DNA from: Thiotrichaceae bacterium
GTDB lineage: Bacteria > Pseudomonadota > Gammaproteobacteria > Thiotrichales > Thiotrichaceae
Assembly (NCBI GenBank): GCA_026989335.1
Contig: JALSJN010000072.1
Coordinates: forward strand, 1-47,479
Reading direction: 5' to 3'
DNA: 47,479 nucleotides
Shown here: in pieces, positions 11,401-29,605 of the stretch
How the letters are laid out: each line of letters begins with the position of its first letter
Position numbering within the stretch: the stretch's first letter is position 1
Program-made: the position numbers and the translations under genes
The notes under the pieces: generated by a model
What the model was told of the DNA's origin: nothing
The model's database searches: none
Seen by the model: only the letters and a program-made list of their open reading frames with translations

Positions 11401-12238
11401 TCATTATGATATCATCAACTTCTGCCGAGAAGCTGCTTAGTTCACTTTCATTATTAATTTCAATAGCTTCAATAATATTAGACTGATCGCTAGGCTCTTT
11501 ATCTGAAGGCTTTTGCGCAAGACTCATTTCTGTTTCTAAATCAGAAGTCTCGGGCATATCATCGATTATATCAATTTCAATATCCAAGCTTGAATCCTCT
11601 TGATCTACAGTATTTCCAGAGAGATTAGCTAATATAGTCAGATCATCATTTGTGCTTTTTTCTTCATTTACAAGCAGGTCATCAATGGAACTTGCTTGGG
11701 AGTTCTTGTCGAATAAGTTGACGCTAGTTTTTTCTGTTTGAAAAGAAGGTTGCGCGATGCTTGTTGAAGATATTGCATTTAATACTTCAACTTTCATAAT
11801 TGCTTCATCAGTTTCTAACGAATCACTTATTATTGATTTTTCTAACCAACGATGAAATTTTTCAAGCGATGCCTCTGATGCAGGGGATAACCACTTAGGC
11901 GCTGTTAATTCTGTCATAAGCGCAGTAATTAAGGAGGGTTCATGTTCACGCAATGACGCCGCAAGAAGTTCAATCCAAGCTGAAAAGTGACCCTCTAATA
12001 ATAGCGTATTTAACTGACTACTATTGTCGTCGTTAACAATGGTATTTGAAATCATCCACTTATTAATGGCTTCTAATGCAGGTGCTTCTAATAACTGACA
12101 GAGCATTTCTATACGCTGTAGCTCCATGACTAGGGTTTCTAAGGCGCTTTTAGTCACGGTTGTATCTAGCATCGCCAATTGTAAGGCAATGTCTTCTAGC
12201 TCATCCGCGATAGCGATATTGTTATGATTATCATGCAT
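8411..12238 (-). CDS. pilL: PilL/ChpA-like hybrid chemosensory histidine kinase
   Basis: This CheA-type kinase with a fused receiver probably controls type IV pili or a similar surface output. The start chosen is ATG at 12238, preceded by AGGAG. A TTG next to the upstream stop (12265) is less likely. About 450 acidic residues come first. One canonical HPt domain follows, with phospho-acceptor H488 in AHTIKGASG. Then come the kinase core (N-box LLRNSVDHGIE; G-boxes DDGAGI and GRGVGMDV), a CheW-like domain, and a C-terminal receiver with VVDDSLSNRK and VFTDLEMPRMNG. Pseudomonas ChpA has many phosphotransfer domains; only one canonical one is clear here. It follows the PilJ-like gene directly. 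Confidence 0.9.
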   Translation of the reverse strand: MHDNHNNIAIADELEDIALQLAMLDTTVTKSALETLVMELQRIEMLCQLLEAPALEAINKWMISNTIVNDDNSSQLNTLLLEGHFSAWIELLAASLREHEPSLITALMTELTAPKWLSPASEASLEKFHRWLEKSIISDSLETDEAIMKVEVLNAISSTSIAQPSFQTEKTSVNLFDKNSQASSIDDLLVNEEKSTNDDLTILANLSGNTVDQEDSSLDIEIDIIDDMPETSDLETEMSLAQKPSDKEPSDQSNIIEAIEINNESELSSFSAEVDDIIMTLSTISQSPEDVFNNTDNYITELQRLNLLAELTNYPAIATASTWCEKNIRSFSMVKSEASQSFIATGESWTWLELTSACLNNPEDISLLPAVSVELMREDWAEAFPIEDLQSFILFLQNPAAEETLLNDSLTSSNQLSSELNDLSQDKQHTKENNELSLKWDDDVHPELLSVFFQETPDQVSEVAALLLAISKGEANTEQNQHAARIAHTIKGASGVVGIGALVQFTHKLEDILDYSVAHKLPTETADLLAEASDCLETLFEAVQDQQTAPDDFLPTLDKLTKTANILAAEEKDDISPTVLDMPNLPDFITTSNKSDTDESDENLNEIIETPVAEDTSAQESATESSSIESSQNVSDHNNAAAPVFTNPINTTNTSTIVPPKAQSDVTEAHVRVPLSIIDKLLNLAGELSITATRVSDELDKAIETNKLTKQQDVRVHEMLNELSNTIYQQEKNQSKAVNTQKDNSLDSLEMDSYNELHSISGLLTESILDGEAIETKLTQQLKELSSHLNRQDHLNKELSEVILNSRMVSIESLVPRLERTVRQTCRTVGKKAELVITGNNINVDNDIINGLTDPLLHLLRNSVDHGIEDSKQRKKHKKKEKGLINLDFSRQGNFIVMKLQDDGAGINPDKIYQRAIDKGLITPEQSFSKDEALKLILLPGFTTQDSISNISGRGVGMDVVKTNVEKLKGTIDIESTPNKGSTFTIKIPLTLVTSGTLLLKTSNNHVALPVDSIEQLIYLTPQAVIHKNNVQYIKYNKKEVLIQALPNLLAWPATKIDYNKAQNIIIVKSNNKIHAVHVEKIINSRELVIKTLDPWLNNVRSIIGACHLADGSVAPVINLPQLLEADASNTKSNKNDQQILESSPVAAQDIPQILVVDDSLSNRKALSLIIEQLDYDVLTALDGLDALNIINDKHIDMVFTDLEMPRMNGLELTQAIRVWDDKKDLPIVMVTSRTTNKHRNLATKAGVDDYLTKPVVTEDLHAAMDTWLKQLSQV

Positions 12239-12265
12239 TGGTAAATCTCCTGAGGGTTCGATCAA

Positions 12266-14125
12266 TTATACTTTTGCACTTTCATTGTTATCATTTGTAG
12301 ACTTTGAGTCCAGGGTAAATACGCCAACTGACTGTACTAAGCGTTGTGCATACTCCGACATATTGCGACTTAAGCCCGTTAATGATAAAAGCTCTTGTCC
12401 TGTTGATTGTGTAGATTTCAGGATGCTTTCTGCTTTGTGTTTTAGAACCTCTGTAATACCAACCTGTTCACGCGATGTTTCGGCGATATGGTTGACGGCT
12501 TCAACTAATTGTGATGTTGTATCCAGTACTTCCTTCATCTGGGTCGCTGCATCTTCTGCTTTAACAGAGCCATTAACGACTTGTTCAATGGTTTTATCCA
12601 TCGTGGCGATTGTGGTATTTGTTTCTTGTTGGATATTACGAACTAATGTTGAAATTTGACCCGTAGATTCACGTGAGCTTTCCGCAAGACGTTGGATTTC
12701 TTCTGCGATAACAGAGAAGCCTTTTCCAGCATCACCAGCTGCAGTTGCTTGCATGGAAGCATTGAGTGCAAGTACGGTAGTTCGTTCAGCAATCGTATTA
12801 ATGATTTCAATAACATGAGAAATTTCTTGAGAACGTTCACCTAATTGCTTAATGCGTTTGCCTGTTTCTTGTACTGTTTCACGAATATCAGCCATACCTG
12901 TTAATGTTTGCGTTACTGATTCATGCGCTTTTTTAGTAGAAATACTGGTGTTGCCAGCCATTGTATTGGTTTTTGCTGCTGTGTTTGCAATACCATCAAG
13001 TCGTTGTAGCATGAGGTCCATTTGTTCCGCAGTTTCAATGGCTTGTTCTTGCTCTTGCATCGCAAGTTTATTAACCGACATAAGGTGAGTGTTCACGCGT
13101 TGTGATGCGGTGTTTACCTCAAATGCAATATTCTTTACTTGGCTTAGGGTAGCGGAAGTTTCCTCTGCTAGTAAGTTAATAGCATCTGCTACTGGGCCTG
13201 TGGCATCTTCTGTAACGGTAGCGCGAATAGTGAGGTTACGTTCACTCAATTCTGCAACGGCTTGTAGCAACTGGAAGATTGATTGGTTAAGCTCTTTGTG
13301 TTCTGTATCTACGCTTATAAGTGTTGCTTCACGTTCGTCCAATAGCTCGTTGAATGCTGCACCTAAGTGTGAGAATTCATCACTTCCAGAGATTTCTGCT
13401 CGAGCCTCAAATTCACCTTGTGATAACCTTTGTACTACTTGAGTTAGTTTTTTAGTGGGTTTAGTGATTGATCGCATAATGAGAAAACCGAACAATAGGG
13501 TGAATAATATACCACCACCGATAAACGCTGATAAAACCTTTGCTTGTTCTTCAAGGTGATGCGCATTTTCTTTGGCCATGGCATTAGATTGTAAACGCGT
13601 GCTCTCGGTAAAAGAACTCAATTGTGATATCAGTGAACTACTTAAAGGGTACATTTTTTTAATGACATATGTATCAAGTGCTTTTTTGTTTTCCTCCGTC
13701 TCTTTTTTTGCAAATAAAGGTTGCAACGCTTTATACGACTTTAAAAGTCTTTCATAACCACCTTGAATTTGAATCAATTCAGGGCTATTTGATTGCTCTG
13801 GTGTCCAATGAGAATTTAGCTTGGCGTTAAAGCTGTTTTGAGCGGTTTCAATTTTTTTAATGGCTTTTTTTGTACGTTTATCAGCAGCACTCCAAAATAT
13901 AAAGTTTGAATTGATATTGGTTAATAATTGCGTGTAGTTTTTGTTAATCGCTAAGGTAGCTTTATAAGCATCAGTGAATATTTCTGTATTTTTCTGAATG
14001 TTTTGTGATGTGACTTCATTTTTATTCATGGCAATAGTTGAAAAATAGCCGATAGTCGATAAGACGATAGCTGGAATAGCAATTAATGAAAATATACGAG
14101 TGTTGATTGAAAGTTTGTTTAACAT
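12266..14125 (-). CDS. pilJ: PilJ-like methyl-accepting chemotaxis receptor
   Basis: This is the membrane receptor of the chemosensory cluster. The 619-residue protein has a first membrane helix at about 12-32, a periplasmic helical region to about 195, a second helix at about 198-218, and a HAMP domain. The cytoplasmic signalling region has a hairpin tip reading TTVLALNASMQATAAGDAGKGF, close to PilJ and other pilus-type receptors. It starts at ATG 14125 with AAGG upstream. The gene is flanked by the CheW-like gene and the hybrid kinase on the same strand, supporting a ternary signalling complex. The ligand is unknown. Confidence 0.88.
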   Translation of the reverse strand: MLNKLSINTRIFSLIAIPAIVLSTIGYFSTIAMNKNEVTSQNIQKNTEIFTDAYKATLAINKNYTQLLTNINSNFIFWSAADKRTKKAIKKIETAQNSFNAKLNSHWTPEQSNSPELIQIQGGYERLLKSYKALQPLFAKKETEENKKALDTYVIKKMYPLSSSLISQLSSFTESTRLQSNAMAKENAHHLEEQAKVLSAFIGGGILFTLLFGFLIMRSITKPTKKLTQVVQRLSQGEFEARAEISGSDEFSHLGAAFNELLDEREATLISVDTEHKELNQSIFQLLQAVAELSERNLTIRATVTEDATGPVADAINLLAEETSATLSQVKNIAFEVNTASQRVNTHLMSVNKLAMQEQEQAIETAEQMDLMLQRLDGIANTAAKTNTMAGNTSISTKKAHESVTQTLTGMADIRETVQETGKRIKQLGERSQEISHVIEIINTIAERTTVLALNASMQATAAGDAGKGFSVIAEEIQRLAESSRESTGQISTLVRNIQQETNTTIATMDKTIEQVVNGSVKAEDAATQMKEVLDTTSQLVEAVNHIAETSREQVGITEVLKHKAESILKSTQSTGQELLSLTGLSRNMSEYAQRLVQSVGVFTLDSKSTNDNNESAKV

Positions 14126-14169
14126 GGGTAAGACCTTTATTTTTATTATTATTGGTTTTATGTGTTCGT

Positions 14170-14703
14170 TTAATTTTGTGTGAAGTGTTGAAGTAGTTGT
14201 GAATGGTTGGCGTCAAAAATTGATGTCCTTCCATCACTAAGGCGATGCTTCACCCAGTTTGGTGTATTTTCAATGTGTTTTCGCTTGGAATATTTGTCGA
14301 GTTTGACCATTGAGGGTAGGTTATCCGTAATGAATATGATGGGAGCATAATCTTTATGCTCTAACATCATATAATTATCATTGGCAGTATTTTGTTTTTT
14401 AGTGTCTAGAAAATTATGCATGTTTATAACGGGCATTATCACACCACGAACACTAACAATACCTGAGCACCATGCTGGAATATTAGGTACTTTATTAATT
14501 ATTAACTCAGTTAAATTTTCTACTTTTAAATCTGCTTCAATAAGTATGTTGAATTCTCCTATAGTATAATAAAAGCGTCTGGTGGCTTCATTGCTTGGTT
14601 TGTTGCTTAAACCAATTTTTGAATTTAGAGAAGAGATGAATGATGATGTTGATGTATCATTAACATCTTCTTGATTTAAAATATTTTTTTCAATGGTTTC
14701 CAT
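14170..14703 (-). CDS. pilI: CheW-like adaptor (PilI-type)
   Basis: The 177-residue protein has a CheW domain from about residue 40, including the typical IVSVRGVIMPVINMHNFLD segment. It would couple the receptor to the kinase. It has an N-terminal extension of about 40 residues before the domain. AGGAT precedes the ATG. The gene sits between the single-domain receiver and the receptor, matching the pilG/H-I-J-L order of Pil-Chp clusters. Confidence 0.85.
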   Translation of the reverse strand: METIEKNILNQEDVNDTSTSSFISSLNSKIGLSNKPSNEATRRFYYTIGEFNILIEADLKVENLTELIINKVPNIPAWCSGIVSVRGVIMPVINMHNFLDTKKQNTANDNYMMLEHKDYAPIIFITDNLPSMVKLDKYSKRKHIENTPNWVKHRLSDGRTSIFDANHSQLLQHFTQN

Positions 14704-14739
14704 TACGTTATCCTAATTATTATTATGTAATGCTATCGG

Positions 14740-15105
14740 TTATACGTCTACAAGTTTATCTAATATGTCAGAATCTTCATAAGGTTTCACAATGTAGTCT
14801 GTTGCTCCTAATTGTTTTGCCCATTGCCTATCAACCGGGTTCGATTTACTTGAAACCATGAATATGGGGGTGTTTGTTAAGGCTGGATTTTTCTTAATTG
14901 TTCTACAGGCTTTATAGCCATCGCCATCCTCCATCACTATATCAAGCATGATAGCGTCAGGTTTCATTTTTTCACTGATTGCAATAGCTTGATTTCCTGA
15001 ACTTGCCGTAACCGTGTTATAACCAGCAGTTTCCAAAATAGCCTTTAAATGCATGAGCTGAGTGTCTGAGTCGTCAGCAATGAGAATTGTTTGTTTTATA
15101 GTCAT
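14740..15105 (-). CDS. single-domain CheY/PilH-like response regulator
   Basis: The 121-residue protein is a lone receiver domain. It has the acidic pair in ILIADDSDTQ, the phospho-acceptor Asp in IMLDIVMEDGDGY, the switch Ser in FMVSSK and the conserved lysine in IVKPYED. The IVMEDGDGY and KPYED stretches resemble PilH/PilG proteins. AGGAG precedes ATG. It is the first gene of the chemosensory cluster and would be phosphorylated by the hybrid kinase. Which Pil-type receiver it corresponds to cannot be decided from the sequence. Confidence 0.85.
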   Translation of the reverse strand: MTIKQTILIADDSDTQLMHLKAILETAGYNTVTASSGNQAIAISEKMKPDAIMLDIVMEDGDGYKACRTIKKNPALTNTPIFMVSSKSNPVDRQWAKQLGATDYIVKPYEDSDILDKLVDV

Positions 15106-15292
15106 AAGTGCTCCTTATTTTTATTATTAACACGCTATTTTAATTTGATGAGTTTCGTTCATCATTGTGTCGTTAGAGTGACCTTACCTTAGATAAGTGG
15201 CTAAATATAGGCTTTTACAGATGAGTGGTCGATAAAGATTGGTCTAATTAGCACAGCTTCTTCTAAAGATAAAGAGAGGTAATTTTATTAGA

Positions 15293-15982
15293 TTATTCGC
15301 TAGCATTTAACGACTTAATACCTTTATGAGGTAAAAATATTCCGCAACCTAGTGCTCTTGCATCACCTAAGCCGCTTTGTTGTATTTTTACTGATGATTC
15401 ACTATCAAGGTCAGCAATCATTAAGTGCCGTGTGAAGAGTTTTTCTGAGGGGGTATTAATGGTGTGTGTTTTCCCGCAGAGCATTTTTTTGACGGTGAAG
15501 CCGGTAATTTGTTTAATATCTTGTGAAATACGGATAAGGAAGTCATTTTCACTTTCATCACTGTCACTTAGAACATGGCGTGAGAAAATCACGCTGTCGT
15601 TAGTTAGTTCTTTCTTTTTAGATTTTCCTACAGCGAGTTCGTGCCCACCTATTAGCAGTGTTTTTCCCGTAAGTTCATTGGTTTGCTTTAATTTTAAGCT
15701 AGGTATTCTTAGGGTCATTTTTGTACGTCGTGAAGGGTATAATAAAGCACCTACCTCGTCATCTGCAGGGCGTATCCAGCCATTATTGCTTTCTGCTACA
15801 TGAATATGATGTATGCCAACACCTTCATCTAATAACCAGGGAAGGTGTTCTAGTATTGATTGTAATAGGATCCATGCGTGATCTAAAGGTAAGGTCTTAC
15901 ACCGTATTGCAAAGCTTAAATCAATAACATCGTCAGGTATTTGATAGGGAAGACTCTTGTCTTCATCTTCTTGCCAAAACAT
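15293..15982 (-). CDS. orphan Cas6/Cmx6-like protein (type I-MYXAN Cas6 family resemblance)
   Basis: The 229-residue protein resembles the Cas6 variant described for type I-MYXAN CRISPR systems (Cmx6, TIGR02807). Matching features are DVIDLSFAIRCKTLPLDHAW at 18-37, GVGIHHIHV at 54-62, a basic TLRIPSLKLK stretch near 90-99, a GKTLLIGGHEL segment near 107-116 and the C-terminal glycine-rich loop GLGDARALGCGIFLPHKGI at 204-222. Cas6 proteins are RNA endonucleases that cut CRISPR repeats. No CRISPR repeats or other cas genes are seen in this window, so the role may have changed. Candidate catalytic histidines include H35, H59 and H136, but none can be assigned. It lies downstream of a TauD-like gene and a small unknown gene on the same strand, 200 bases after the latter. 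Recognition is from memory of the family. Confidence 0.7.
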   Translation of the reverse strand: MFWQEDEDKSLPYQIPDDVIDLSFAIRCKTLPLDHAWILLQSILEHLPWLLDEGVGIHHIHVAESNNGWIRPADDEVGALLYPSRRTKMTLRIPSLKLKQTNELTGKTLLIGGHELAVGKSKKKELTNDSVIFSRHVLSDSDESENDFLIRISQDIKQITGFTVKKMLCGKTHTINTPSEKLFTRHLMIADLDSESSVKIQQSGLGDARALGCGIFLPHKGIKSLNASE

Positions 15983-16182
15983 TAGCTTTTCTCTTTGTAT
16001 GTGAAACCTTTGTACGTGTCAGGTGACGAGTAAAATGATTAAAATCCCACTGACTTTTCGTGGAAAACGTGCCAATCACTCGTATTAGCTTCATTATTCC
16101 ATCACAATCAGTGATATTTACCCATTTTTCTTGCGCCACCGATTATCAAGTTTGTTAAATGCAGTTTTAATGGTTGCTGTCT

Positions 16183-16380
16183 TTAGCGGGCTGATTCAAA
16201 GGCTAAATTTAGCTGATCGTGCCAGTCATTAGGGCGATCGGAATAAACGGGGGGTTCTATGTCAACTTGAAAGTAGAGTTCGCCCGTATCAATAGCCTGT
16301 TTTTGAATAGTTTTTTTTAGGTCATCAAAGCTTGTTAGCTTGTGTCCTTGTTCTAATAGTAACTCACTGAGTGAAAGCAT
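16183..16380 (-). CDS. small hypothetical protein, 65 residues
   Basis: I do not recognise this protein. The ATG at 16380 has a strong ribosome-binding sequence, GGAGG, and lies 11 bases after the stop of the TauD-like gene, so co-expression is likely. The product is acidic and soluble, with no signal peptide, membrane segment or cysteine. It contains a helical N-terminus (MLSLSELLLEQGHKLTSFDD) and a PPVYSDRPNDW segment. Its size and position suggest a partner of the dioxygenase or of the Cas6-like protein, but this is inference only. Confidence 0.7.
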   Translation of the reverse strand: MLSLSELLLEQGHKLTSFDDLKKTIQKQAIDTGELYFQVDIEPPVYSDRPNDWHDQLNLAFESAR

Positions 16381-16391
16381 GGTGGCCTCCG

Positions 16392-17282
16392 TTAGGGTTG
16401 ATTAAGTGTGTCAAGATATCGACCTCGGTATAGTAAGCGTTTTTTATCTGATTCCTCATAATCCACAAAACTTGTACGGCGATGCAAAATATTCTTGCAA
16501 ATTAAACCTTCACCTGCTTGCAGTGTGTACTTAAGGATATAAGGTGAATCGCTCTCAAAGAGTTGAGTTAAAAAACTCACTGCTTCTAATATAAGGGCAG
16601 ATTGTTTCCATTCAATATTTCTTGTGCGTGCAGAAAAACGCATATGGAGTTGCCCATTGGGTAACGTTGAAAATATGGGTCCTGTTTGCGCTTTACGGAT
16701 GACTTTATTATTTAAAATATTAGCAGGAATCGTCATAGCATCTTTTTCCATTAAAGCATGGATAAATTCAGGGTTTTCATCGCGTAATAAAATATAGGCA
16801 ATTTCATGATCCATAATCAGAGAAGCACCGCCAGATTGAGCGGGTTGTTTGCAATGTAATAACATGGCGTTTATTTGTTTATCAGTAGTGTTGTAGTAAC
16901 CATCCGTATGCCAGCTCAAACGTTTATTAGAGTAGGGTATATAGTCATGTTGATTTATATGTCTGGTTTGTGTGATAGAGGTAAGTTTGTCATCATCAGC
17001 ACAAAAATTGGAGTCTAGCTGTAGAGGTCCAAGTTGTTCTACAAAATTCATAATATTGGACTTTGTATTATCACGCTTGTGGGCTAAACGATAGAAACTA
17101 AAACTATATCTCAGGCAGTTTTGGAGGACTTGATCAACTTCAGTGCTGGAAGGAGATTGACAGTGAGTGATAGTCACAAACAAATCATTTAAACCTGACT
17201 GGTAATTTAGCGCTTGATGAAGCTTTTTTTCTCGCCATGTTTGATAACTTTTATCATCGGATAAATTAAAAGGTGAATGCAT
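16392..17282 (-). CDS. TauD/TfdA-family Fe(II)/2-oxoglutarate dioxygenase
   Basis: The 296-residue protein has the iron-binding triad of the family: H125 and D127 in LSWHTDGYYN, and distal H267 in KNILHRRTSF. An arginine near 286 in RLLYRGRYLD could bind 2-oxoglutarate. Such enzymes hydroxylate or cleave substrates such as taurine, other sulfonates or betaines. The substrate here is unknown. The gene diverges from dsrA across a 402-base region and runs into a small unknown gene, with a Cas6-like gene further downstream. A link to organic sulfur is suggested only by the dsr neighbourhood. Confidence 0.8.
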   Translation of the reverse strand: MHSPFNLSDDKSYQTWREKKLHQALNYQSGLNDLFVTITHCQSPSSTEVDQVLQNCLRYSFSFYRLAHKRDNTKSNIMNFVEQLGPLQLDSNFCADDDKLTSITQTRHINQHDYIPYSNKRLSWHTDGYYNTTDKQINAMLLHCKQPAQSGGASLIMDHEIAYILLRDENPEFIHALMEKDAMTIPANILNNKVIRKAQTGPIFSTLPNGQLHMRFSARTRNIEWKQSALILEAVSFLTQLFESDSPYILKYTLQAGEGLICKNILHRRTSFVDYEESDKKRLLYRGRYLDTLNQP

Positions 17283-17684
17283 TCTATATCTCCAAACGCC
17301 ATGTAAGCAAGCTTGCCGTTTTTTTGCCGCTGTTCGTGTAAAGGTCTCAAGTCAGTAAACCAATACTAAGGTTATATACTTGTTTTAAATTAATAGTAGT
17401 AAAGTATATTCTATATTTTAAGGTATACTGTGTAATCTAGAATAGATATTTCAGTAAAAGCACAGGTTCTATCTAATAAGGGGTAGAATAGTTTTAGCTT
17501 AGCCTCCCATGGGTGAGGTTTATATTTTAATGAAATGAACTAGAATACATGCATTCGAGAATTTGAGTATATCTACTTTAATGAATTTAAAGCAGAAGTA
17601 TTCGTAAATAAGTTTGAATTTAAATGGTAGTCGTACTTTGATAGTTTGTGCGATACCAACAATTGATTTTACTAGGAGGCAGTT
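17283..17684. promoter_or_regulatory. divergent control region between the dioxygenase gene and dsrA
   Basis: This 402-base AT-rich gene-free region must carry the dsr promoter and the start signals of the dioxygenase gene. Visible elements are the perfect palindrome GCAAGCTTGC at 17307-17316, a possible -10 TATACT near 17426 without a good -35, an imperfect inverted repeat CCTCCCATGGGTGAGG near 17504-17519, and a strong dsrA ribosome-binding site AGGAGG at 17674-17679. No regulator site I know can be assigned with confidence. Confidence 0.5.
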
Positions 17685-18947
17685 ATGGCTGATATAAAGA
17701 AGTATCCTACGCCGATGTTAGATGTTTTAGAAGATGGTCCTTGGCCGAGTTTTATTACGGGTCTTAAAAAGATGCGTGATGAGCATCCGGATGAGCGCAT
17801 TAATAACGTTATTAATGGTTTGATGGGTCAGCTTGAGCATTCTTACGAAACCAAAATGGGCTACTGGAAAGGTGGAACAATTTCTGTGTTCGGTTACGGT
17901 GGTGGTATTATCCCTCGTTTCTCGGAAGTAGGTGATGCATTCCCTGAGTCAAGAGAATTCCATACTTTGCGTGTGCAGCCTACTCCAGGTAATTATTATA
18001 CAACGGATATGATGCGTAAGCTTGCCGATAGTTGGGAGAAGTGGGGTTCAGGCCTTCAGACTTTTCATGGTCAGACAGGTAATATCATGTTTATCGGTGC
18101 TGATAATAATAGCTTTCAGCATTTCTTTGATGAGATTAATGACTACGGTTGGGATCTTGGTGGAGCTGGTCCATGTGTTCGTACAGCAATGTCATGTGTT
18201 GGTGCGGCGCGTTGTGAAATGTCTAATTGTAATGAACATGCGATACATCGTCATCTTGTGAATAACTTTACAGATGATGTCCATCGTCCTGCGCTACCTT
18301 ATAAATTCAAGTTTAAAGTTTCAGGTTGTCCTAATGATTGTCAAAATGCAATTGAGCGTGCTGACTTTGCAGTTATTGGTACTTGGAGAGATCATAAGAA
18401 GATAGATCAAGATCAGTGGAAAGCATTTGTTGCTGATAAAGGTGTTGATTATGTAATGGATAACGTGATTTCACGTTGTACTTCTAGCTCTTTGTCGCTG
18501 GGTGAAGATAATTCTTTGATCGCTGATGAGAGTAACTGCGTTCGTTCAATGCATTGTATGAATGTTGTTCCTAAGGCAATTAGCCCAGGTGAAGATAAGG
18601 GTGTAACTATTCTGTGTGGTGGTAAGCGTACACTGAAGATTGGTGACTTGATGGGTACAGTGCTTGTACCATTCATGAAGCTTGATACGCCAGAAGACTA
18701 CGAAGTTATCGTTGAACTTGCTGAAGAGATTATTGACTTCTGGGCAGAGAACGGTCTTGAGCATGAGCGCACAGGTGAAATGATTGAGCGTATTGGTTTG
18801 GTTAACTTCTTAGAAGGAATTGGAGTTGATCCTGATCCAAATATGATTGCCCAGCCTCGTAACGTATCTTATTTTCGTTCTGACGGTTGGGATGAAGCTG
18901 CTGAAGAGTGGTTTAATCGTAAGCGTGAAGAGAAGGCTGCTAGCTAG
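17685..18947 (+). CDS. dsrA: reverse dissimilatory sulfite reductase alpha subunit DsrA
   Basis: With DsrB, DsrA forms the sirohaem enzyme that in sulfur oxidizers converts DsrC-bound or reduced sulfur to sulfite. The 420-residue protein has the sirohaem/[4Fe-4S] ligands C171, C177 (CVGAARC), C215 and C219 (GCPNDC). In the ferredoxin domain the cluster motif reads C285-V-R-S288-M-H-C291, where CxxCxxC is expected, with a further C265. The Ser at 288 is directly encoded (TCA). AGGAGG precedes ATG. It leads the dsr operon. Co-occurrence with dsrEFH and dsrL supports the oxidative direction. Confidence 0.97.
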   Translation: MADIKKYPTPMLDVLEDGPWPSFITGLKKMRDEHPDERINNVINGLMGQLEHSYETKMGYWKGGTISVFGYGGGIIPRFSEVGDAFPESREFHTLRVQPTPGNYYTTDMMRKLADSWEKWGSGLQTFHGQTGNIMFIGADNNSFQHFFDEINDYGWDLGGAGPCVRTAMSCVGAARCEMSNCNEHAIHRHLVNNFTDDVHRPALPYKFKFKVSGCPNDCQNAIERADFAVIGTWRDHKKIDQDQWKAFVADKGVDYVMDNVISRCTSSSLSLGEDNSLIADESNCVRSMHCMNVVPKAISPGEDKGVTILCGGKRTLKIGDLMGTVLVPFMKLDTPEDYEVIVELAEEIIDFWAENGLEHERTGEMIERIGLVNFLEGIGVDPDPNMIAQPRNVSYFRSDGWDEAAEEWFNRKREEKAAS

Positions 18948-19027
18948 CTCATTCATACTGGAAGATATTTTAACTTTTAAACTGGGTGAGCTTCTCATTC
19001 GGTTAGTACAAGATTTAGGAGTAAATT

Positions 19028-20104
19028 ATGGCAGCACCGGAAATGCGTGAACCGATTGAATCAGGTTGTCCTGACGGTTTTCAATATATGCACCCTACAA
19101 TGCGTCGAAATTTCGGCCTTTGGGATTATCATGAAGATCCACAACCAGGTGTTATGGTTCATGTCGCTAAAAGTGGTGATAAAGTTTGGACTGTAAAAGC
19201 AGGTACCCAACGTATACTAGATGTTTTCACTTTGCGTGACCTTTTAGATATCGCTGATGAGTTTGCAGATGGATATATTCGTTTTACTATCCGTAGTAAT
19301 ATAGAGTTTTACACAGATGCGGAAGCAAAGGTTCAGCCTTTAGTTGATGCACTTAAAGAGAAGGGGTACGCAGTAGGCGGAACTCGTAACTCTGTTGCAT
19401 CTATATCGCATACTCAGGGCTGGTTACACTGTGATATTCCTGGTACTGATGCATCTGGTGTAGTCAAGTCTATGATGGATGAGTTATACGACGAATTTAC
19501 AAACTGGAATATGCCTAACCGTGTTCATATTACAACATCTTGTTGTCAGATTAACTGTGGTGGTCAAGGTGATATCGCAATTAACGTACAGCACACTAAG
19601 CCACCCAAGATAGATCACTCTCTTGTTGGTAATGTTTGTGAGCGCCCTTCAGTTGTAGCACGCTGTCCTGTTGCTGCTATTCGTCCTGCAATGGTTGATG
19701 GTCTTCCTTCATTAGAAGTTGATGAAAAGAAGTGTATTTGTTGTGGTGCTTGTTACCCTCCATGTCCTCCTATGCAGATTAATGATCACGAATTCACTCA
19801 GTTAGCTGTATGGATTGGTGGAAACCACTCAAATGCACGTGGTAAGCCAACATTCCAGCGTCTTGTTGCTGCTGGTATTCCAAATAATCCTCCTCGCTGG
19901 CCTGAAGCTACGGCAATCGTTAAGAAGATTCTTGATTGTTATAAAGAAGGTGCGCGAGATTGGGAACGTATCAATGAATGGGTTGAGCGCATCGGATGGC
20001 CTCGTTTCTTTGAAGTGACTGGTCTACCTTTCACAAAGTACCATATTGATAACTGGCGTGGTGCGCGTGCAAACTTAAACTCATCAACACACATTCGTTT
20101 CTAA
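19028..20104 (+). CDS. dsrB: reverse dissimilatory sulfite reductase beta subunit DsrB
   Basis: DsrB pairs with DsrA in the alpha2beta2 enzyme of cytoplasmic sulfur oxidation. The 358-residue protein has the TTSCCQINCGGQGD sirohaem-region motif and a complete ferredoxin insertion with CICCGACYPPCPP, so its [4Fe-4S] site is intact, unlike that of DsrA here. TAGGAG precedes ATG. It lies 80 bases after dsrA. Length is normal. Confidence 0.97.
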   Translation: MAAPEMREPIESGCPDGFQYMHPTMRRNFGLWDYHEDPQPGVMVHVAKSGDKVWTVKAGTQRILDVFTLRDLLDIADEFADGYIRFTIRSNIEFYTDAEAKVQPLVDALKEKGYAVGGTRNSVASISHTQGWLHCDIPGTDASGVVKSMMDELYDEFTNWNMPNRVHITTSCCQINCGGQGDIAINVQHTKPPKIDHSLVGNVCERPSVVARCPVAAIRPAMVDGLPSLEVDEKKCICCGACYPPCPPMQINDHEFTQLAVWIGGNHSNARGKPTFQRLVAAGIPNNPPRWPEATAIVKKILDCYKEGARDWERINEWVERIGWPRFFEVTGLPFTKYHIDNWRGARANLNSSTHIRF

Positions 20105-20130
20105 GAACGATTTTAGATAGGAATATATAG

Positions 20131-20523
20131 ATGAAATTTACAATAATGATTAATGAAGGTCCTTATCAGCATCAATCTGCTGATTCGGCTCTGCAGTTCT
20201 GTCGTTCACTATTAGCACAGGGTCACGAGATTTTCCGTGTGTTCTTTTACCATGATGGCGTAAACAATGGTTCAAGTTTAAGTGTGCCCCCAGCTGACGA
20301 TCGTTTAATTCAAAAAGAATGGTCTGAACTATCAAAAGAGCATGATCTTGACTTGGTTATTTGTATCGCTGCAGCTCAGCGTCGCGGTCTTATGGATAAA
20401 GATGAAGCAAAGCGTCAAGGCTTTGAGTCTAATAATATGATCGAAGGTTTTCGTATATCTGGTTTAGGCCAGTTAATCGAAGGCGGTATAGAATCTGATC
20501 GCACTGTTGTGTTTGGAGATTAA
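20131..20523 (+). CDS. dsrE: sulfurtransferase subunit DsrE
   Basis: DsrE is the sulfur-carrying subunit of the DsrE2F2H2 hexamer, which transfers sulfur to DsrC. The 130-residue protein has the conserved active cysteine C78 in LVICIAAAQRRG, at the same position as in A. vinosum, and the TusD/DsrE fold pattern. This cysteine and the linked dsrH are regarded as marks of sulfur-oxidizing dsr systems. It lies 26 bases after dsrB and 5 bases before dsrF. Confidence 0.97.
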   Translation: MKFTIMINEGPYQHQSADSALQFCRSLLAQGHEIFRVFFYHDGVNNGSSLSVPPADDRLIQKEWSELSKEHDLDLVICIAAAQRRGLMDKDEAKRQGFESNNMIEGFRISGLGQLIEGGIESDRTVVFGD

Positions 20524-20528
20524 TAGAA

Positions 20529-20933
20529 ATGGCTACTAAAAAATTCATGTTTGTTAATCGAAAAGCACCTTACGGAACTGTCTATGCGCTTGAATCCTTG
20601 GAGGTTGTATTAATCTCTGCTGCTTTTGAGCAAGACGTGTCTCTCGCTTTTATTGATGATGGTGTATACCAAATTACTAAAGGTCAAGATACTACAGGTA
20701 TTGGTCAAAAGAACTTCTCAAATACGTATAAAGCATTGGGCGATTATGAAATTAAGAAACTATATGTTTCTAAAGAGTCTTTAGAAGAGCGTGGTCTCAC
20801 TCAAGATGATCTAATGGATCTTGTTTGGGAAGATGAAGATGATGATTGGGCAGAAAAGCCTTCAATTATCATGGTTGATCGTTCTGAAATGGCTGCTGTA
20901 ATGGCTGAACAAGAAGTTACGCTAAGTTTTTAG
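20529..20933 (+). CDS. dsrF: sulfurtransferase subunit DsrF
   Basis: DsrF is the TusC-like subunit of the DsrEFH complex. The 134-residue protein has the family pattern KKFMFVNRKAPYGTVYALE near the start and an acidic WEDEDDDW stretch near the C-terminus. It contains no cysteine, consistent with a structural rather than a sulfur-carrying subunit. The ribosome-binding GGAG lies within the end of dsrE, so translation is probably coupled. Confidence 0.96.
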   Translation: MATKKFMFVNRKAPYGTVYALESLEVVLISAAFEQDVSLAFIDDGVYQITKGQDTTGIGQKNFSNTYKALGDYEIKKLYVSKESLEERGLTQDDLMDLVWEDEDDDWAEKPSIIMVDRSEMAAVMAEQEVTLSF

Positions 20934-20955
20934 ATCCTAAACGGAGAATATTGGA

Positions 20956-21264
20956 ATGGCAATGCTACATATTGTAAACAAGTCACCGTTTGAAAAGGTG
21001 TCTTTTAGAAGTTGTTTGAATCACGTAAGTAAAGGTGATTCGGTTTTGATGATCGAAGATGCAGCAGTTGGTGCAATCGAAGGTACATCATTTTCTGAAA
21101 AGCTTAAAACAGCAATGGGCGATGTGTCTGTTTATGTTTTAGGTGGTGATCTTGCTGCACGTGGATTAAGCGAAGATCGTATGATCGATGGTATCAAAGC
21201 TGTTGATTATGCAGGTTTTGTCGACTTAACTGTAGAGAACGAGACGACGCAAAGCTGGCTATAA
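20956..21264 (+). CDS. dsrH: sulfurtransferase subunit DsrH
   Basis: DsrH is the TusB-like subunit of DsrEFH. The 102-residue protein starts MAMLHIVNKSPFEKVSFRSC, placing the conserved C20 where the family has it. The VLMIEDAAVGAI segment is typical. CGGAG precedes the start. dsrC follows after 90 bases. Normal length; no abnormality seen. Confidence 0.96.
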   Translation: MAMLHIVNKSPFEKVSFRSCLNHVSKGDSVLMIEDAAVGAIEGTSFSEKLKTAMGDVSVYVLGGDLAARGLSEDRMIDGIKAVDYAGFVDLTVENETTQSWL

Positions 21265-21354
21265 AACCTGTGTAACTCAATTTTTAGAAAGTTGAGCTAT
21301 GTGATTTTTAGCTAATTTAATTTATATCTATATATAGAAATAAGAGGAAATATT

Positions 21355-21690
21355 ATGTCAACACTAGAATTAAATGGTGAATCAATCGAGTTAGACGAAG
21401 AAGGTTATTTAGTAGACCTTAGTTTGTGGACACGAGAAATCGGTGAAGCGCTTGCAAAAGGCGAAGATGTTGATTTAACCGACGAGCACTGGGATATCAT
21501 TGATTTCTTACGTGAGTACTATGAAGAATATCAAATTGCTCCCGCGGTACGTGTTCTAACTAAAGCTGTTGGTAAGCGACTTGGTAAAGATAAAGGTAAT
21601 TCAAAGTATCTTTACTCTTTATTTCCTTACGGTCCTGGTAAGCAAGCGTGTAAGTACGCTGGCCTTCCAAAACCTACAGGTTGTGTCTAA
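21355..21690 (+). CDS. dsrC: sulfur carrier protein DsrC
   Basis: DsrC is the sulfur-relay substrate of DsrAB. Its C-terminal arm carries sulfur and cycles with the DsrMKJOP complex. The 111-residue protein has both functional cysteines, C99 and the penultimate C110, ten residues apart in ACKYAGLPKPTGCV, which separates true DsrC from TusE. AGAGGAA precedes ATG. The gene is isolated by a 90-base gap upstream and an intrinsic terminator downstream, suggesting that a separate abundant dsrC message is made. Confidence 0.98.
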   Translation: MSTLELNGESIELDEEGYLVDLSLWTREIGEALAKGEDVDLTDEHWDIIDFLREYYEEYQIAPAVRVLTKAVGKRLGKDKGNSKYLYSLFPYGPGKQACKYAGLPKPTGCV

Positions 21691-21710
21691 GTAGTAATAC
21701 AGTAAAATTG

Positions 21711-21750
21711 AGAATTTTAGGAGTGTTTTGTGCACTCCTGAATTCTTTTT
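21711..21750 (+). terminator. intrinsic terminator or attenuator after dsrC
   Basis: AGAATTTTAGGAGTG (21711-21725) pairs with the segment GCACTCCTGAATTCT (about 21732-21746) with a small mismatch. A TTTTT run follows at once. Because dsrMKLJOP continues on the same strand with its start 60 bases later, it probably works as a partial terminator that enriches dsrABEFHC message over the membrane-complex genes. Confidence 0.75.
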
Positions 21751-21811
21751 CACAAGTTTATAGCATAAGTGTTTGTAAACTTATGAAAAAGAAGACTATT
21801 GGGAGCTTCAA

Positions 21812-22567
21812 ATGGTTGTTGGTGTTATTTATGCGGTTTTATTTTGGACTGCGACATTAGTTTTGGTATTGGGTGTTGCCAATAAAATTCGTATTTATGC
21901 GAAGACACCTGCGCCTCTAAAAATACCAACAACTCCAGCTCCAGTTACTCAGAGTGGTGTTTTCTTACGCATGTTTCAAGAAGTTTTCTTTTTTAAAAGT
22001 TTGTTTCGTGCGGATAAATTACTTTGGGTATTAGGCATGTTGTTTCATTACACCATGTTGATTATTGTGCTTCGTCATTTTAGATATGTACAAGAACCAG
22101 TTTGGGGTGTTATTCAGTTTGTGCAGCCTTTTGGTATTTACGCTGGGTTTTTATTTATTATCGGTTTGTTAGGTTTAATGGCTCGTCGTATTTTTATAGA
22201 TAGAATTCGCTATATTACAGCGCCTTCTGATATTGCCATGTTACTTTTACTCATATTAATTGGTGTATCAGGTCTTATGATGCAGTTTGTTAGCCCTACT
22301 GATATTCTTATGGTTAAGGCTTTCTTTAGAGGCTTAATTACTTTTGATTGGCAACCATTGCCTTCAGATGTTGTTTTGCTTGTTCATTTGGGTTTGGTGG
22401 CTGCTTTGATGTTGATTTTCCCTATAAGTAAATTATTGCATGCGCCGGGTATCTTTTTTAGCCCGACACGTAACCAGATCGATAATCCACGCGAAAAGCG
22501 TCATATCGCACCATGGGCTGCTGAACTTGAAAAACAAGGTAAAACTTACCTCGATGAGTTGGATTAA
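21812..22567 (+). CDS. dsrM: DsrM, haem b membrane subunit of DsrMKJOP
   Basis: DsrM is a NarI-like diheme cytochrome b subunit that exchanges electrons with the quinone pool. The 251-residue protein shows five membrane segments at roughly 3-23, 66-86, 102-125, 139-159 and 186-206. Histidines lie within the helices (for example MLFHYTML and LLVHLGLV), consistent with haem ligation. GGGAG precedes ATG. dsrK follows after 12 bases. Confidence 0.96.
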   Translation: MVVGVIYAVLFWTATLVLVLGVANKIRIYAKTPAPLKIPTTPAPVTQSGVFLRMFQEVFFFKSLFRADKLLWVLGMLFHYTMLIIVLRHFRYVQEPVWGVIQFVQPFGIYAGFLFIIGLLGLMARRIFIDRIRYITAPSDIAMLLLLILIGVSGLMMQFVSPTDILMVKAFFRGLITFDWQPLPSDVVLLVHLGLVAALMLIFPISKLLHAPGIFFSPTRNQIDNPREKRHIAPWAAELEKQGKTYLDELD

Positions 22568-22579
22568 GGAATATAACTG

Positions 22580-24256
22580 ATGGCTGCTGATTACGACGTT
22601 CCAAAAATTACAGGTGAAGATGGGATTGTAGATATACCTAGTCTCCAGCCTGATGCGATGAAAGGACATGGTCCTTGGGTGTCGAAGCCTGAGTTTCAAG
22701 AAGATATGCATTTTCCTACCGATTTTACGATGCCAGAAAGCATCGAGAATTATGGAGATGCAGGTACTCTAGTTGAAAATTGGAAAGAACGTGCTTTAGA
22801 TAAAATGGGTGATCTAAAAGGTCGTTACCGTTCGTTACAAGTTTTCTTGGATATTTGTGTTAAATGCGGAGCATGTACTGATAAGTGTCATTATTACATC
22901 GGCTCTTCAGATCCTAAAAACATGCCGGTTGCACGTCAAGATTTACTTAGAAAAGTCTATCGTCGTTATTTTACTTTTGCAGGCAAGTTTTTTGGAAAAA
23001 TTGGCATGCCGGGTTTTGTTGGTGCGGCTGAGTTAACTGAAGATGTTGTTAAAGACTGGTATAATTACTATCATCAGTGTTCTCAATGTCGACGCTGTTC
23101 GGTTTTTTGTCCTTACGGTATTGATACTGCTGAAATTTCAATGGCTGCACGTGAAATTCTCGACCATATTGGCATGGGGCAAAAATACTGTACTGAAATT
23201 ATGGGTAAACTGAATAAGATTGGTAACAATTTAGGTCTGCCTGAAGCTGCTTTAGCAGACACTCTAGAAGGTCTTGAAGAAGATATCTTTGATGAAACTG
23301 GAGTTGATGTTAAATTACCTTTGGATAAGAAAGGTTCCGATATTCTTTTAATTACCCCTTCGGCTGATTTCTTCGCAGAACCTCATGTTGATGGTTTGAT
23401 GGGTTATGCGAAAGTGCTACACGAACTAGGTCTTGATTGGACGTTAAGTTCTTATGCATCAGAAGGTGCTAATTTTGGTATGTTTATCGGAAGTTACGAG
23501 AATATGCGTAAAGTTTCTCTACGTATCCGTAAAGCAGCACAAGATCTTGGTGTAAAACGCATCGTATTTGGTGAGTGTGGTCATGCTTGGAGAGTTGCTT
23601 ATAGTTTCTTAAATACACTAGCGGGTCCATTTGACTTTCTTGATCAAAATTATCCTGTTCCTCAGCATATTCTCGAGATTACCGAGCCAGCATTAGCTGC
23701 TGGAAAATTAAATATAGATAAATCTCAGAATGATGACAAGGTTCTTACTTTTCATGATTCTTGTAATATTGCTCGTGGTTCTCGTATGGGTGATAAACCA
23801 GGTGGTCAGTTTGTTCTTCCACGAAATGTAATCAAAGCAGTTTGTAATAACTACGTTGATATGCCAGCAGATACCATTCATGATGCAACTTATTGCTGTG
23901 GCGGTGGTGGTGGGATTTTAACAGACGACCTCATGGAAATACGTGTTAAAGGTGCTCAGCCACGTATGGAAGCCCTGAAACATGTAACTGATAAGCATCA
24001 AGTAACGCACATGGCAGCTATTTGTGCTATTTGTAAATCCCAATTTACTAAAGTAGTTCCTTACTATGGATTTACCATGGATATGATTGTTAGTGTCCAT
24101 CAGTTGGTGAGTAATGCAATTGTCCTTAAAGGACAGTTGACTGAAGAAGAAATTGAAGCACGTGATGCAGCTGAGGAAGCTGAGCGGATTGCTGCAAAAG
24201 AAGCACGAGAAAAAGCCGCTGCTGAGAAAGCTGCTAAAGAATCAAAAGATACTTAA
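22580..24256 (+). CDS. dsrK: DsrK, HdrD-like Fe-S subunit of DsrMKJOP
   Basis: DsrK is the cytoplasmic catalytic subunit, thought to act on the DsrC disulfide or trisulfide. The 558-residue protein has two [4Fe-4S] motifs, C93-x2-C96-x2-C99-x3-C103 and C167-x2-C170-x2-C173-x3-C177. CCG-type segments follow (HDSCNIARG near 395, CCGGGGG near 435, CAICKSQ near 483), as in HdrD, which carries a noncubane active-site cluster. The C-terminal 35 residues are a charged Ala/Glu/Lys helix. It is tightly linked to dsrM; a hairpin follows the stop. Confidence 0.96.
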   Translation: MAADYDVPKITGEDGIVDIPSLQPDAMKGHGPWVSKPEFQEDMHFPTDFTMPESIENYGDAGTLVENWKERALDKMGDLKGRYRSLQVFLDICVKCGACTDKCHYYIGSSDPKNMPVARQDLLRKVYRRYFTFAGKFFGKIGMPGFVGAAELTEDVVKDWYNYYHQCSQCRRCSVFCPYGIDTAEISMAAREILDHIGMGQKYCTEIMGKLNKIGNNLGLPEAALADTLEGLEEDIFDETGVDVKLPLDKKGSDILLITPSADFFAEPHVDGLMGYAKVLHELGLDWTLSSYASEGANFGMFIGSYENMRKVSLRIRKAAQDLGVKRIVFGECGHAWRVAYSFLNTLAGPFDFLDQNYPVPQHILEITEPALAAGKLNIDKSQNDDKVLTFHDSCNIARGSRMGDKPGGQFVLPRNVIKAVCNNYVDMPADTIHDATYCCGGGGGILTDDLMEIRVKGAQPRMEALKHVTDKHQVTHMAAICAICKSQFTKVVPYYGFTMDMIVSVHQLVSNAIVLKGQLTEEEIEARDAAEEAERIAAKEAREKAAAEKAAKESKDT

Positions 24257-24290
24257 AAAACTACAAATAAACATTTATTACTGTAGTTTT
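24257..24290 (+). terminator. hairpin between dsrK and dsrL
   Basis: AAAACTACA (24257-24265) pairs exactly with TGTAGTTTT (24282-24290). The terminal TTTT is part of the stem and is followed by AAG, so it is a weak terminator at best. It may set the ratio of dsrMK to dsrL message or be a processing site. Confidence 0.5.
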
Positions 24291-24356
24291 AAGTAATTTG
24301 TTACATATAATTTAGATTAACTGATCCAATCTACGGATTGAACTAGGAGAATAAGC

Positions 24357-26324
24357 ATGGCAACTTCACCTGATGATAAATCATTAGCAAAGGGTCTCAC
24401 GTTTAGACGTTATGACGACGGAGACTATACTTGGGATAGCATGGAAGAGCATATCTTCCAAGAAGATACTTCTTACAAGTGTCCTACTTATATTCAGAAA
24501 ACGCCACCTTGTCAGGGCAGTTGCCCTTCCGGTGAGGATATTCGTGGTTGGTTACAGATCGTCCGTGGCATAGAAAAGCCAACAGGCGATATGTCAATGC
24601 AGGAATATGCATTCCGTCGTTCTACAGCTGCTAACCCGTTCCCATCAATGATGGGTCGTGTATGTCCAGCACCTTGTGAAGAAGGTTGCAATCGTAACGA
24701 TGTTGATGATTTTGTTGGTATCAACTCCGTTGAGCAATATATTGGTGATGAGGCAATAGCCTTAGGTCTTGGTTTTGATTATTCTGCTCCTTCAACTGGC
24801 AAGAAAATTGCTATCATAGGTGGTGGTGTTGCGGGTATGGCCGCTGCTTACCAGCTTCGTAAAATGGGTCACGCATCAACTATCTTTGACGACCATGCAC
24901 AATTAGGTGGAATGGCTCGTTATGGTATCCCAGGGTATCGTGTACCGCGTGACAAGATGGATGCAGAGATCAAACGTATTACGGATATGGATGGTGTTGA
25001 AGTTAAACTAAACACTCGTGTTGGCAAAGATGTCACTGTTGAATCTTTAGAAAAAAATTATGATGCAATTCTTTGGGCTTTAGGTTGTAAAAATGGTCGT
25101 GGATTATTTGTTGATAATTGGAATGATGTACCCAATGCGATTACAGCAGTAGATTTCCTAGAAGCATTTAACTTGGGCGATATGAAATATACCGCGCCAA
25201 AAGTTGTTTGTGTGGGTGGTGGTGATACTTCTATCGACGTGGTTTCTGTATCACGTCGTATCGGTACGCTAGCGGATTACACTGAAAAAGGTGAAGATTC
25301 AGCAACTGGTGTTATAAAACATGATGCCGAGCCAGCTAGTAAAGTTCCTGCTGAAGTCACTTTAACGTCATTGTTTCCACTCGATCAAATGACGGCTGCT
25401 GAACATGAAGTTCAAGATGCATTGATTGAAGGTGTGACTATCCTAACAGAAGTTATGCCAACTGAAATTTTGGTTGATGATAATGGACGTGCCGTGGGTT
25501 TAAAGGTTGTTGAGTCTGTCATGGAAGGTAATGTGCCTAAGCCAAAAGAAGGTGGCAAAGAGACTATTATTGAAGCTGACCTTATTGTATCAGCAATCGG
25601 TCAGTTCGGTGATCTTGACGGCGTAGAAGAATACGGTAACGATCGTAATGCGATTGATGCAGATAATTTCTACCAAGTTCCTGGGAAAGAAGGGCATTTT
25701 GTAGCTGGTGATATCGTTCGTCCGCATCTTCTAACGACGGCAATTGGTCAAGCATCTATTGCGGCTGAAACAATTAACCATTTTTTGACTCAAAAAAATG
25801 AGAAAATGGATAAACGTCCAAAAGTTGATAAACATCACTTCGATTTACTCGATAAATTAAAAGAGTATGAATTAGCGCCTGTCGCTTACGATGAAGGCAA
25901 AGAAGAAGACTTACGTGGTACAGACAGTGATAATTATGCTGTACATAACTACGATGATCGTTCTGAACATGAAATCGTTGAGTCTAGTGAGTTATTCTTA
26001 GGTCATTTTGAAAAAGTTGAGCGTAATAAACGTACTGAAGATGTTCCAAGTCAAGACGATGTGTTAGGGCACTTTGTTGAACGCATGAATGCACTTGAGG
26101 AAGAACAAGTTGTAGGTGAAGCAGAGCGTTGTATGAGTTGTGGTCTTTGTTTTGAGTGTGATAACTGTGTTATTTACTGTCCTCAAGATGCTGTTTTTCG
26201 AGTGAAGAAAGACCAGTCTACTACAGGCCGTTATGTTGATACGGACTATGATAAGTGTGTTGGTTGTCATATCTGTGCTGATGTATGTCCTACTGGTTAC
26301 ATTGAAATGGGTCTAGGCGGATAA
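24357..26324 (+). CDS. dsrL: DsrL, Fe-S flavoprotein NAD(P)H oxidoreductase
   Basis: DsrL is a cytoplasmic flavoprotein that takes electrons from DsrAB and passes them to NAD(P)+; it is essential for stored sulfur oxidation in A. vinosum. The 655-residue protein is GltD/NfnB-like. It has N-terminal cluster cysteines (PPCQGSCPSG, CPAPCEEGC), an FAD motif IAIIGGGVAGMAAAYQL near 151, and a second nucleotide site VVCVGGGDTSIDVV. Two C-terminal ferredoxin motifs follow (CMSCGLCFECDNC..C and CVGCHICADVCPTG). Length matches the A. vinosum protein. TAGGAG precedes ATG. Confidence 0.97.
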   Translation: MATSPDDKSLAKGLTFRRYDDGDYTWDSMEEHIFQEDTSYKCPTYIQKTPPCQGSCPSGEDIRGWLQIVRGIEKPTGDMSMQEYAFRRSTAANPFPSMMGRVCPAPCEEGCNRNDVDDFVGINSVEQYIGDEAIALGLGFDYSAPSTGKKIAIIGGGVAGMAAAYQLRKMGHASTIFDDHAQLGGMARYGIPGYRVPRDKMDAEIKRITDMDGVEVKLNTRVGKDVTVESLEKNYDAILWALGCKNGRGLFVDNWNDVPNAITAVDFLEAFNLGDMKYTAPKVVCVGGGDTSIDVVSVSRRIGTLADYTEKGEDSATGVIKHDAEPASKVPAEVTLTSLFPLDQMTAAEHEVQDALIEGVTILTEVMPTEILVDDNGRAVGLKVVESVMEGNVPKPKEGGKETIIEADLIVSAIGQFGDLDGVEEYGNDRNAIDADNFYQVPGKEGHFVAGDIVRPHLLTTAIGQASIAAETINHFLTQKNEKMDKRPKVDKHHFDLLDKLKEYELAPVAYDEGKEEDLRGTDSDNYAVHNYDDRSEHEIVESSELFLGHFEKVERNKRTEDVPSQDDVLGHFVERMNALEEEQVVGEAERCMSCGLCFECDNCVIYCPQDAVFRVKKDQSTTGRYVDTDYDKCVGCHICADVCPTGYIEMGLGG

Positions 26325-26340
26325 TAGAGCATTAAAATGT

Positions 26341-26379
26341 AACAAAAATTAAGTCTGTTTTTCAGGCTTTATTTTTGTT
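26341..26379 (+). terminator. long hairpin between dsrL and dsrJ
   Basis: Arms AACAAAAATTAAGTCTG (26341-26357) and CAGGCTTTATTTTTGTT (26363-26379) pair at 15 of 17 positions around TTTTT. No T-run follows the stem. It divides dsrL from dsrJOP and may limit or stabilise the dsrJOP message. Confidence 0.6.
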
Positions 26380-26419
26380 AAGTCTTATAAATTATTAAGA
26401 ATCAAAAGCTTAGGAAAAT

Positions 26420-27738: not shown

Positions 27739-27747
27739 GGAATTATC

Positions 27748-28965: not shown

Positions 28966-28990
28966 AATTATATATCTGTCATTAAAACAA

Positions 28991-29223: not shown

Positions 29224-29605
<382 letters not shown>

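Follow-up and report, generated by a model that had tools for sequence, protein, structure and literature searches.

A Cas6-fold protein encoded beside dsrA in Gammaproteobacteria and its likely recruitment into reverse Dsr sulfur oxidation

The DNA analysed here (the window) is a stretch of 47,479 nucleotides from a Thiotrichaceae contig, in which a short group of minus-strand genes lies between dsr genes and a chemosensory cluster with CheY, CheW, MCP and CheA-type domains. The group consists of a gene for a TauD-family protein at the place of dsrQ (16392..17282; PF02668, E 1e-18), a gene for a 65-aa protein (16183..16380) found by neighbourhood clustering to be conserved beside Cas6-like genes and dsrQ, a spacer of 200 bases (15983..16182) with no Rfam match in a search of 12000-32000, and a gene for a Cas6-like protein of 229 amino acids (15293..15982), dsr-linked and without CRISPR neighbours. 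Divergent from this group, on the plus strand, is dsrA (17685..18947; TIGR02064, E 2.6e-174 at 17718-18929), adjoined by a weak TIGR02064 relative (19028..20104; match at 19211-20044), which we take from gene order to be dsrB. Three further plus-strand open reading frames at 20131..21264 are presumably dsrE, dsrF and dsrH, by gene order and clustering, and dsrC (21370..21687, plus strand; PF04358, E 2.1e-44) encodes a protein ending in GCV. The first-pass annotation had put a TauD-like enzyme and a small unfamiliar protein in the minus-strand group, flanked by chemosensory and sulfur genes, and the Pfam and dsrA matches agree with this. PMC7596348, citing Lenk et al. (2012), uses the name dsrQ for a tauD-like gene that precedes dsrA; the TauD-family gene of the window has the place and orientation described there. 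The passages on dsrQ in that paper name neither a Cas6-like nor a 65-aa partner, and the window has both. Searches of Pfam, NCBIfam and PADLOC assigned the 65-aa protein to no family. Two plus-strand open reading frames (29960-30652 and 30732-31862), flanked by the dsr genes and a gene for a Leu/Phe-tRNA transferase, have no Pfam match at 1e-5.

The product of 15293..15982 had been called Cas6/Cmx6-like with a glycine-rich loop, and this assignment holds: it matches Pfam PF09559 (Cas6) with E 3.5e-53 and 180.9 bits (cut-off 26.7), and the loop is kept. The proposed check with TIGR02807, the NCBIfam model for type I-MYXAN Cas6/Cmx6, gave 104.7 bits, just over the curated cut-off of 98.85, and all 52 rows of the family alignment A1 match this model with E of at most 1e-15, the E-value and not the curated cut-off being counted for the rows. 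This alignment holds 52 of 79 sequences, picked for spread, with L049 (cut at the contig start) and L051 (split frame) excluded; the Cas6-like reading frame of L051 is in two pieces, which reflects either a true lesion or an error of sequencing. Six Cas6 models of PADLOC also match the protein of the window. An AlphaFold2 model made with the 52-row alignment has a mean pLDDT of 90.3 and a pTM of 0.86, and the structural comparison with Cas6 that had also been proposed finds Cas6-type chains: the top PDB match in Foldseek is the Cas6 of a type I-B CAST (E 6.3e-16, TM 0.75/0.80), followed by other Cas6 chains, Pyrococcus Cas6, Cse3 and Thermus Cas6, and at E up to 0.001 the 40 PDB matches consist entirely of Cas6, Cse3, Cascade or Cas6-fusion chains. 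The window thus encodes a genuine Cas6-fold (double ferredoxin) protein, a member of the Cas6 superfamily. The type I-B CAST Cas6 (PDB 8fcj/8fcu; hmmsearch E 5.9e-22) is the best solved relative, although it shares only 22% identity, has N in place of H35 and was solved within a Cascade complex.

A plasmid search returned eight records, one of them a marginal match; six cyanobacterial plasmid cas6 genes adjoin cas3 and a cmx8/cas8-type gene. A Cas6/Cmx6-annotated gene on a Gloeobacter plasmid (L133, 4974-5765) has no cas neighbours in the stretch examined, where genes for a PAPS-reductase-family protein and a cupin are close by; it is perhaps another Cas6 outside CRISPR. Among viral contigs, 22 stretches had a pattern match and none encodes a relative. 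Eighty-nine rows of the family were compared with seven cyanobacterial plasmid relatives, six of them encoded beside cas3. Common to both are H35 (codon at 15878..15880, minus strand; 87/89 family rows and 7/7 relatives), at what we take to be the place of the general acid/base histidine of Cas6, as well as R92, R135, Q201 and the loop glycines, which in the family are G204 (87/89), G206 (88/89), and G212 and G214 (89/89 each). The loop, with G212-C213-G214 and the family-specific H219-K220, covers residues 204-220 (15323..15373, minus strand). Also family-specific are an N-terminal W3 (the start sites of two divergent rows being unsure), R86, E145, K166, G170 and R185, and an insert G-W-x-R-P, which is missing in three divergent rows; in the window it lies in residues 65-72, S-N-N-G-W-I-R-P (15767..15790, minus strand), where W69, R71 and P72 stand opposite gaps in the seven relatives. 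A basic residue occupies each of positions 71, 85, 86, 165, 166, 185 and 220 in at least 91% of the 89 rows (86 and 220 in 89/89, 166 in 98%, 185 in 96%) against 0-2 of the seven relatives. Ten charge-conserved positions are basic and three are acidic (D21, E145 and D191), and 17 residues are invariant over the 52 diverse rows of A1. The whole protein has a median pI of 6.2 and a net charge of -4 in the family, against a pI of 9.3-9.6 and a charge of +6 to +10 in the seven relatives, while the family core without the acidic N-terminal tail is near neutral (median net charge +1, pI 7.9). In a phylogenetic tree a branch supported at 100/96 separates the family from the other sequences; the tree has no outgroup and gives no direction of descent, and the program warned that some long branches are unsurely placed. 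The protein of the window resembles type I-MYXAN Cas6/Cmx6 (TIGR02807, PF09559) in its profiles, similar length, histidine at 35, R92, R135, Q201 and glycine-rich loop, and differs from it in the separate branch of the dsr-linked family, its own insert and basic residues, its acidic charge, and the lack of cas3, cmx8, Cas7 or Cas5 neighbours and of an array in the window.

No CRISPR array had been noticed in the window, and a search for direct repeats of at least 20 bases with copies within 120 bases of each other likewise found none. Neither cas3, cmx8, Cas7 or Cas5 nor an array was found beside the Cas6-like gene, whose scanned neighbours have other functions. The claim that the gene is an orphan is therefore upheld for the window; for the genome it must be qualified, because another contig (C7, 110605-111282; L089, L090) carries, near its end, a Cas1 gene with an internal stop, which we take to be I-F-like. 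Csy3, Csy4 and DevR/Cas7 were sought in the assembly, which is 94.9% complete, and not found, and Cas3 had no match over the cut-off there. With its Cas1 locus at the edge of a contig, this genome itself does not decide whether it holds a CRISPR locus lacking its own Cas6. The absence of a link to Cas1 across the 369 genomes described below speaks against such a locus.

Of 369 Gammaproteobacteria genomes sampled in one even draw, 118 have the family, 119 dsrA and 136 Cas1, the dsrA count being read off the table at E below 1e-30 with fragments included (112 genomes are over the curated cut-off). The family and dsrA occur together in 111 genomes, that is, in 111/118 carriers and 111/119 dsrA genomes (odds ratio about 480; Fisher p 7e-75, which is indicative only, since genomes are not independent). 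Cas1 is present in 51/118 carriers and 85/251 other genomes (odds ratio 1.5, p 0.08), so there is no clear association of the family with Cas1. The Cas6-like gene occurs in 57 taxonomic families, and in 55 of them at least one genome has it together with dsrA; in four families (f2, f33, f107 and f134), which have members with and without strong dsrA, the presence of the gene follows that of dsrA among the members listed, as judged by eye. In the 111 genomes with both, the two genes are on the same contig in 84 and on different contigs in 27. The first-pass annotation had suggested a neighbourhood survey of dsr-containing genomes, and in this one 82 of the 84 same-contig pairs lie within 6 kb of each other. 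The gene is remote from dsrA in G109 (42 kb) and G325 (518 kb), and in G305, G097 and G180 it has no dsrA in at least 6 kb of upstream sequence examined. Five genomes of 1.0-1.1 Mb (G039, G142, G255, G287 and G351) keep the gene and dsrA and have no Cas1 match. In a 1.4-Mb genome, a Cas6-like gene 42 kb from dsrA (L098, 8782-9441) has neighbours that, from their translations, look to us like RNase III and Era. Pairwise distances of the Cas6-like proteins track those of DsrA over 59 loci (Mantel r 0.69, with 0/2000 permutations as high), a test in which shared species history and functional coupling are mixed and not separable.

Fifteen of the 369 genomes are exceptions to the pairing, and 12 of these are clusters cut at contig ends. 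In six of the seven carriers without strong dsrA, a contig end cuts the cluster short: next to dsrQ in G067, G093, G127 and G186, next to the Cas6-like gene in G317 and, in G318, part-way through dsrA, of which a fragment is left; the seventh, G299, has neither dsrQ nor dsrA in 2.3 kb before the 65-aa gene. Among the eight dsrA genomes without the gene, dsrA is at or off a contig edge in G070, G079, G110, G207 and G238, and the contig of G123 stops just past the 65-aa gene. The cluster is absent from the more than 14 kb that flank dsrA on its open side in G211 (86% complete), whose genus mate G087 has the Cas6-like gene and dsrA on separate contigs, and from the 1.8 kb before dsrA in G355 (88% complete), two genus mates of which carry the gene. 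In the locus of G355 (L124, 2-2992), dsrA lies inside an open frame of 997 codons that runs from the contig start.

Gene order was compared in the best 80 of 106 stretches encoding relatives, taken from a scan of one genome per species; among the matches listed, the taxa are Gammaproteobacteria or lineages that we take to be placed in them. The usual order is dsrA and, divergent from it, dsrQ (tauD), the 65-aa gene, the Cas6-like gene and a gene for a DsrC paralogue ending in KGGY. Clustering of open reading frames placed a gene of 235-275 aa sometimes between the 65-aa and Cas6-like genes and a gene of 70 aa often after the DsrC paralogue. Where the upstream sequence exceeds 4 kb (54 loci), this clustering places dsrA in 42, and a profile pass adds two of the other 12 (L030 and L036). 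Downstream of the Cas6-like gene in L005-L080 there recur small families of about 70, 106, 186 and 64 aa, one scanned member of each having no Pfam match over the cut-off, as well as a family of PKHD-type 2-oxoglutarate oxygenases and another family of similar look. Among 299 Pseudomonadota genomes drawn in a second sample, four have the family and 51 have dsrA over the cut-off; only four of these 51 are Gammaproteobacteria, and all four are the carriers. Three divergent carriers of this draw have dsrA and, divergent from it, the Cas6-like gene followed by the DsrC paralogue, with dsrQ further on. The family is absent from the 47 dsrA genomes of other classes (0/47), and therefore Dsr chemistry itself does not need the Cas6-like protein, which points to a lineage-specific accessory. 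Five other-class genomes were examined: in four, dsrA, dsrQ and the 65-aa gene are present and the Cas6-like gene is missing, and in the fifth just 1.1 kb precedes dsrA.

Of the 77 loci that extend 900 bases or more downstream, 54 have a DsrC-family gene following the Cas6-like gene within 700 bases, a count that leaves out L081-L088 and L091-L093 as likely duplicates. Over all loci, the Cas6-adjacent paralogues end in KGGY in 69/69 cases and 61/69 lack cysteine over their final 15 residues; the DsrC of the operon has one in that stretch in 65/65 and has a cysteine within the last three residues in 64/65. These endings fit the RspA type of DsrC paralogue. A literature search on RspA-type DsrC found nothing relevant. 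Although adjacent at many loci, the paralogue does not adjoin the Cas6-like gene in the closest relatives of the window, and in the window's own genome a paralogue of the KGGY type is encoded on another contig.

A possible RNA substrate was sought by folding the spacers between the Cas6-like and DsrC-paralogue genes and the gaps inside the dsr operon, and no common hairpin was found in them. Strong hairpins of unrelated sequence are common in the dsrA-dsrB and dsrC-dsrM gaps across lineages. They were rejected as a common substrate; they are missing in the short-gap carrier group L064-L080 and also occur in other-class genomes without the Cas6-like gene (L127 and L128). The Rfam search of 12000-32000 in the window gave three matches, all near 29000 and below the gathering score. 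Loci of the Thiothrix group and a small number of others carry a motif of 15 bases, TATCCCTTTTGAGGA, 3' of the Cas6-like gene (12 aligned rows: L008, L012, L013, L016, L018, L020, L021, L022, L024, L033, L036 and L100), and in several Thiothrix loci a TATAAT-like element comes after it. Even with two mismatches allowed, the window lacks the motif, and inspection by eye did not show it after the Cas6-like gene at most of the other loci. Perhaps it serves the DsrC paralogue as a promoter element, or is a regulator site or a small hairpin.

Reverse Dsr is a main bacterial route for oxidising stored sulfur. The best-supported reading of these data is that the Cas6-like gene is functionally part of this pathway in Gammaproteobacteria, and the link is strong. 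The suggestion that an RNA protein had been recruited to a non-CRISPR function consists of two parts. Its recruitment part is strongly supported, with dsrA present in 111/118 carriers, 82/84 same-contig pairs within 6 kb and no link to Cas1. Its RNA part has H35 and the loop in its favour, and against it the loss of basic charge and the failure to find a common substrate. We lean, at somewhat better than even confidence, towards a Cas6 lineage recruited as an accessory of reverse Dsr that most likely binds, and through H35 probably cleaves, a specific small RNA structure. According to this model, a Cas6-fold family related to the type I-MYXAN/I-B Cas6 would have been recruited into reverse Dsr sulfur oxidation, the direction of descent being inferred; the protein would most likely bind a specific small RNA structure, the conserved H35 would probably cleave the bound RNA, and the protein might thereby serve as a post-transcriptional accessory of dsr expression together with the DsrC paralogue (RspA type) and DsrQ. 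Action on RNA is suggested by homology, by the kept histidine and loop and by the conserved basic residues, and the suggestion is weakened by the charge and by the lack of a common hairpin. Against the model as a whole stand these same two points, the 0/47 in other classes, the genomes G211, G355 and G299, and the fact that the paralogue is not always adjacent. The stronger proposal that a CRISPR-free Cas6 is a dedicated RNA endonuclease controlling reverse Dsr in nearly all Dsr-bearing Gammaproteobacteria, and so a Cas6 domesticated for metabolism, is plausible, at somewhat less than even confidence.

The protein could also be a Dsr accessory that does not act on RNA, its fold serving as a scaffold or ligand binder, for example for the DsrC paralogue or DsrAB, with the histidine and loop repurposed. 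The acidic-to-neutral charge unlike that of the CRISPR-type relatives, the lack of a common RNA substrate and a neighbourhood of enzymes and a DsrC paralogue would all fit such a role, but the family shares H35, R92, R135, Q201 and its glycine-rich loop with those same relatives and the charge-conserved positions are mostly basic (10 against 3 acidic), and we regard it as rather unlikely. It is improbable that the protein is an RNA enzyme of the sulfur-relay side, acting with TusE/DsrC-like carriers on tRNA or another stable RNA and not on dsr mRNA. DsrEFH and DsrC resemble the TusBCD/TusE relay of tRNA thiolation, a likeness that favours this idea, as does the adjoining DsrC paralogue in 54/77 loci; on the other hand, the paralogue ends in KGGY (69/69) and not in the cysteine-bearing tail of the operon DsrC (64/65), and sulfur transfer by the paralogue is therefore unlikely.

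An ordinary CRISPR Cas6 working in trans on arrays elsewhere in the genome would be consistent with Cas1 in 51/118 carriers and with the window's own genome, where Cas1 carries a stop near a contig end and Csy4 was not found. I-F systems normally bring their own Csy4, however, and the family is tied closely to dsrA and not clearly to Cas1 (odds ratio 1.5, p 0.08); together with the retention of the gene in the five genomes of 1.0-1.1 Mb without a Cas1 match, this makes a role in trans very improbable. Since most same-contig copies adjoin dsrA, co-transfer alone would give co-occurrence, and the gene might have hitch-hiked beside dsrA by chance, with no shared function. We find this barely credible: the gene is kept away from dsrA in G109, G325, G305, G097 and G180 and is kept in reduced genomes, and 17 residues are invariant in 52 diverse rows. 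The preferred reading is that of a Cas6 lineage recruited as an accessory of reverse Dsr, probably one that acts on RNA.

In the titles and abstract openings searched, which cover few subscription journals, no report linking a Cas6-like gene to dsr was found, and in the papers found on Cas6, dsrAB and sulfur oxidation, the passages on Cas6 concern ordinary CRISPR systems; the terms sought on this subject are absent from PMC11406059. Tracking dsrA as closely as it does, the Cas6-like gene appears to be a component of reverse Dsr that went unnoticed despite long study of the pathway. The curated annotation model TIGR02807 would name its product CRISPR-associated, yet 67/118 carriers have no Cas1 match, and a match to the Cas6/Cmx6 profile alone is thus no sign of CRISPR. 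If the proposed action on RNA is true, the family would be an example, open to direct test, of a CRISPR enzyme that became a regulator of metabolism.
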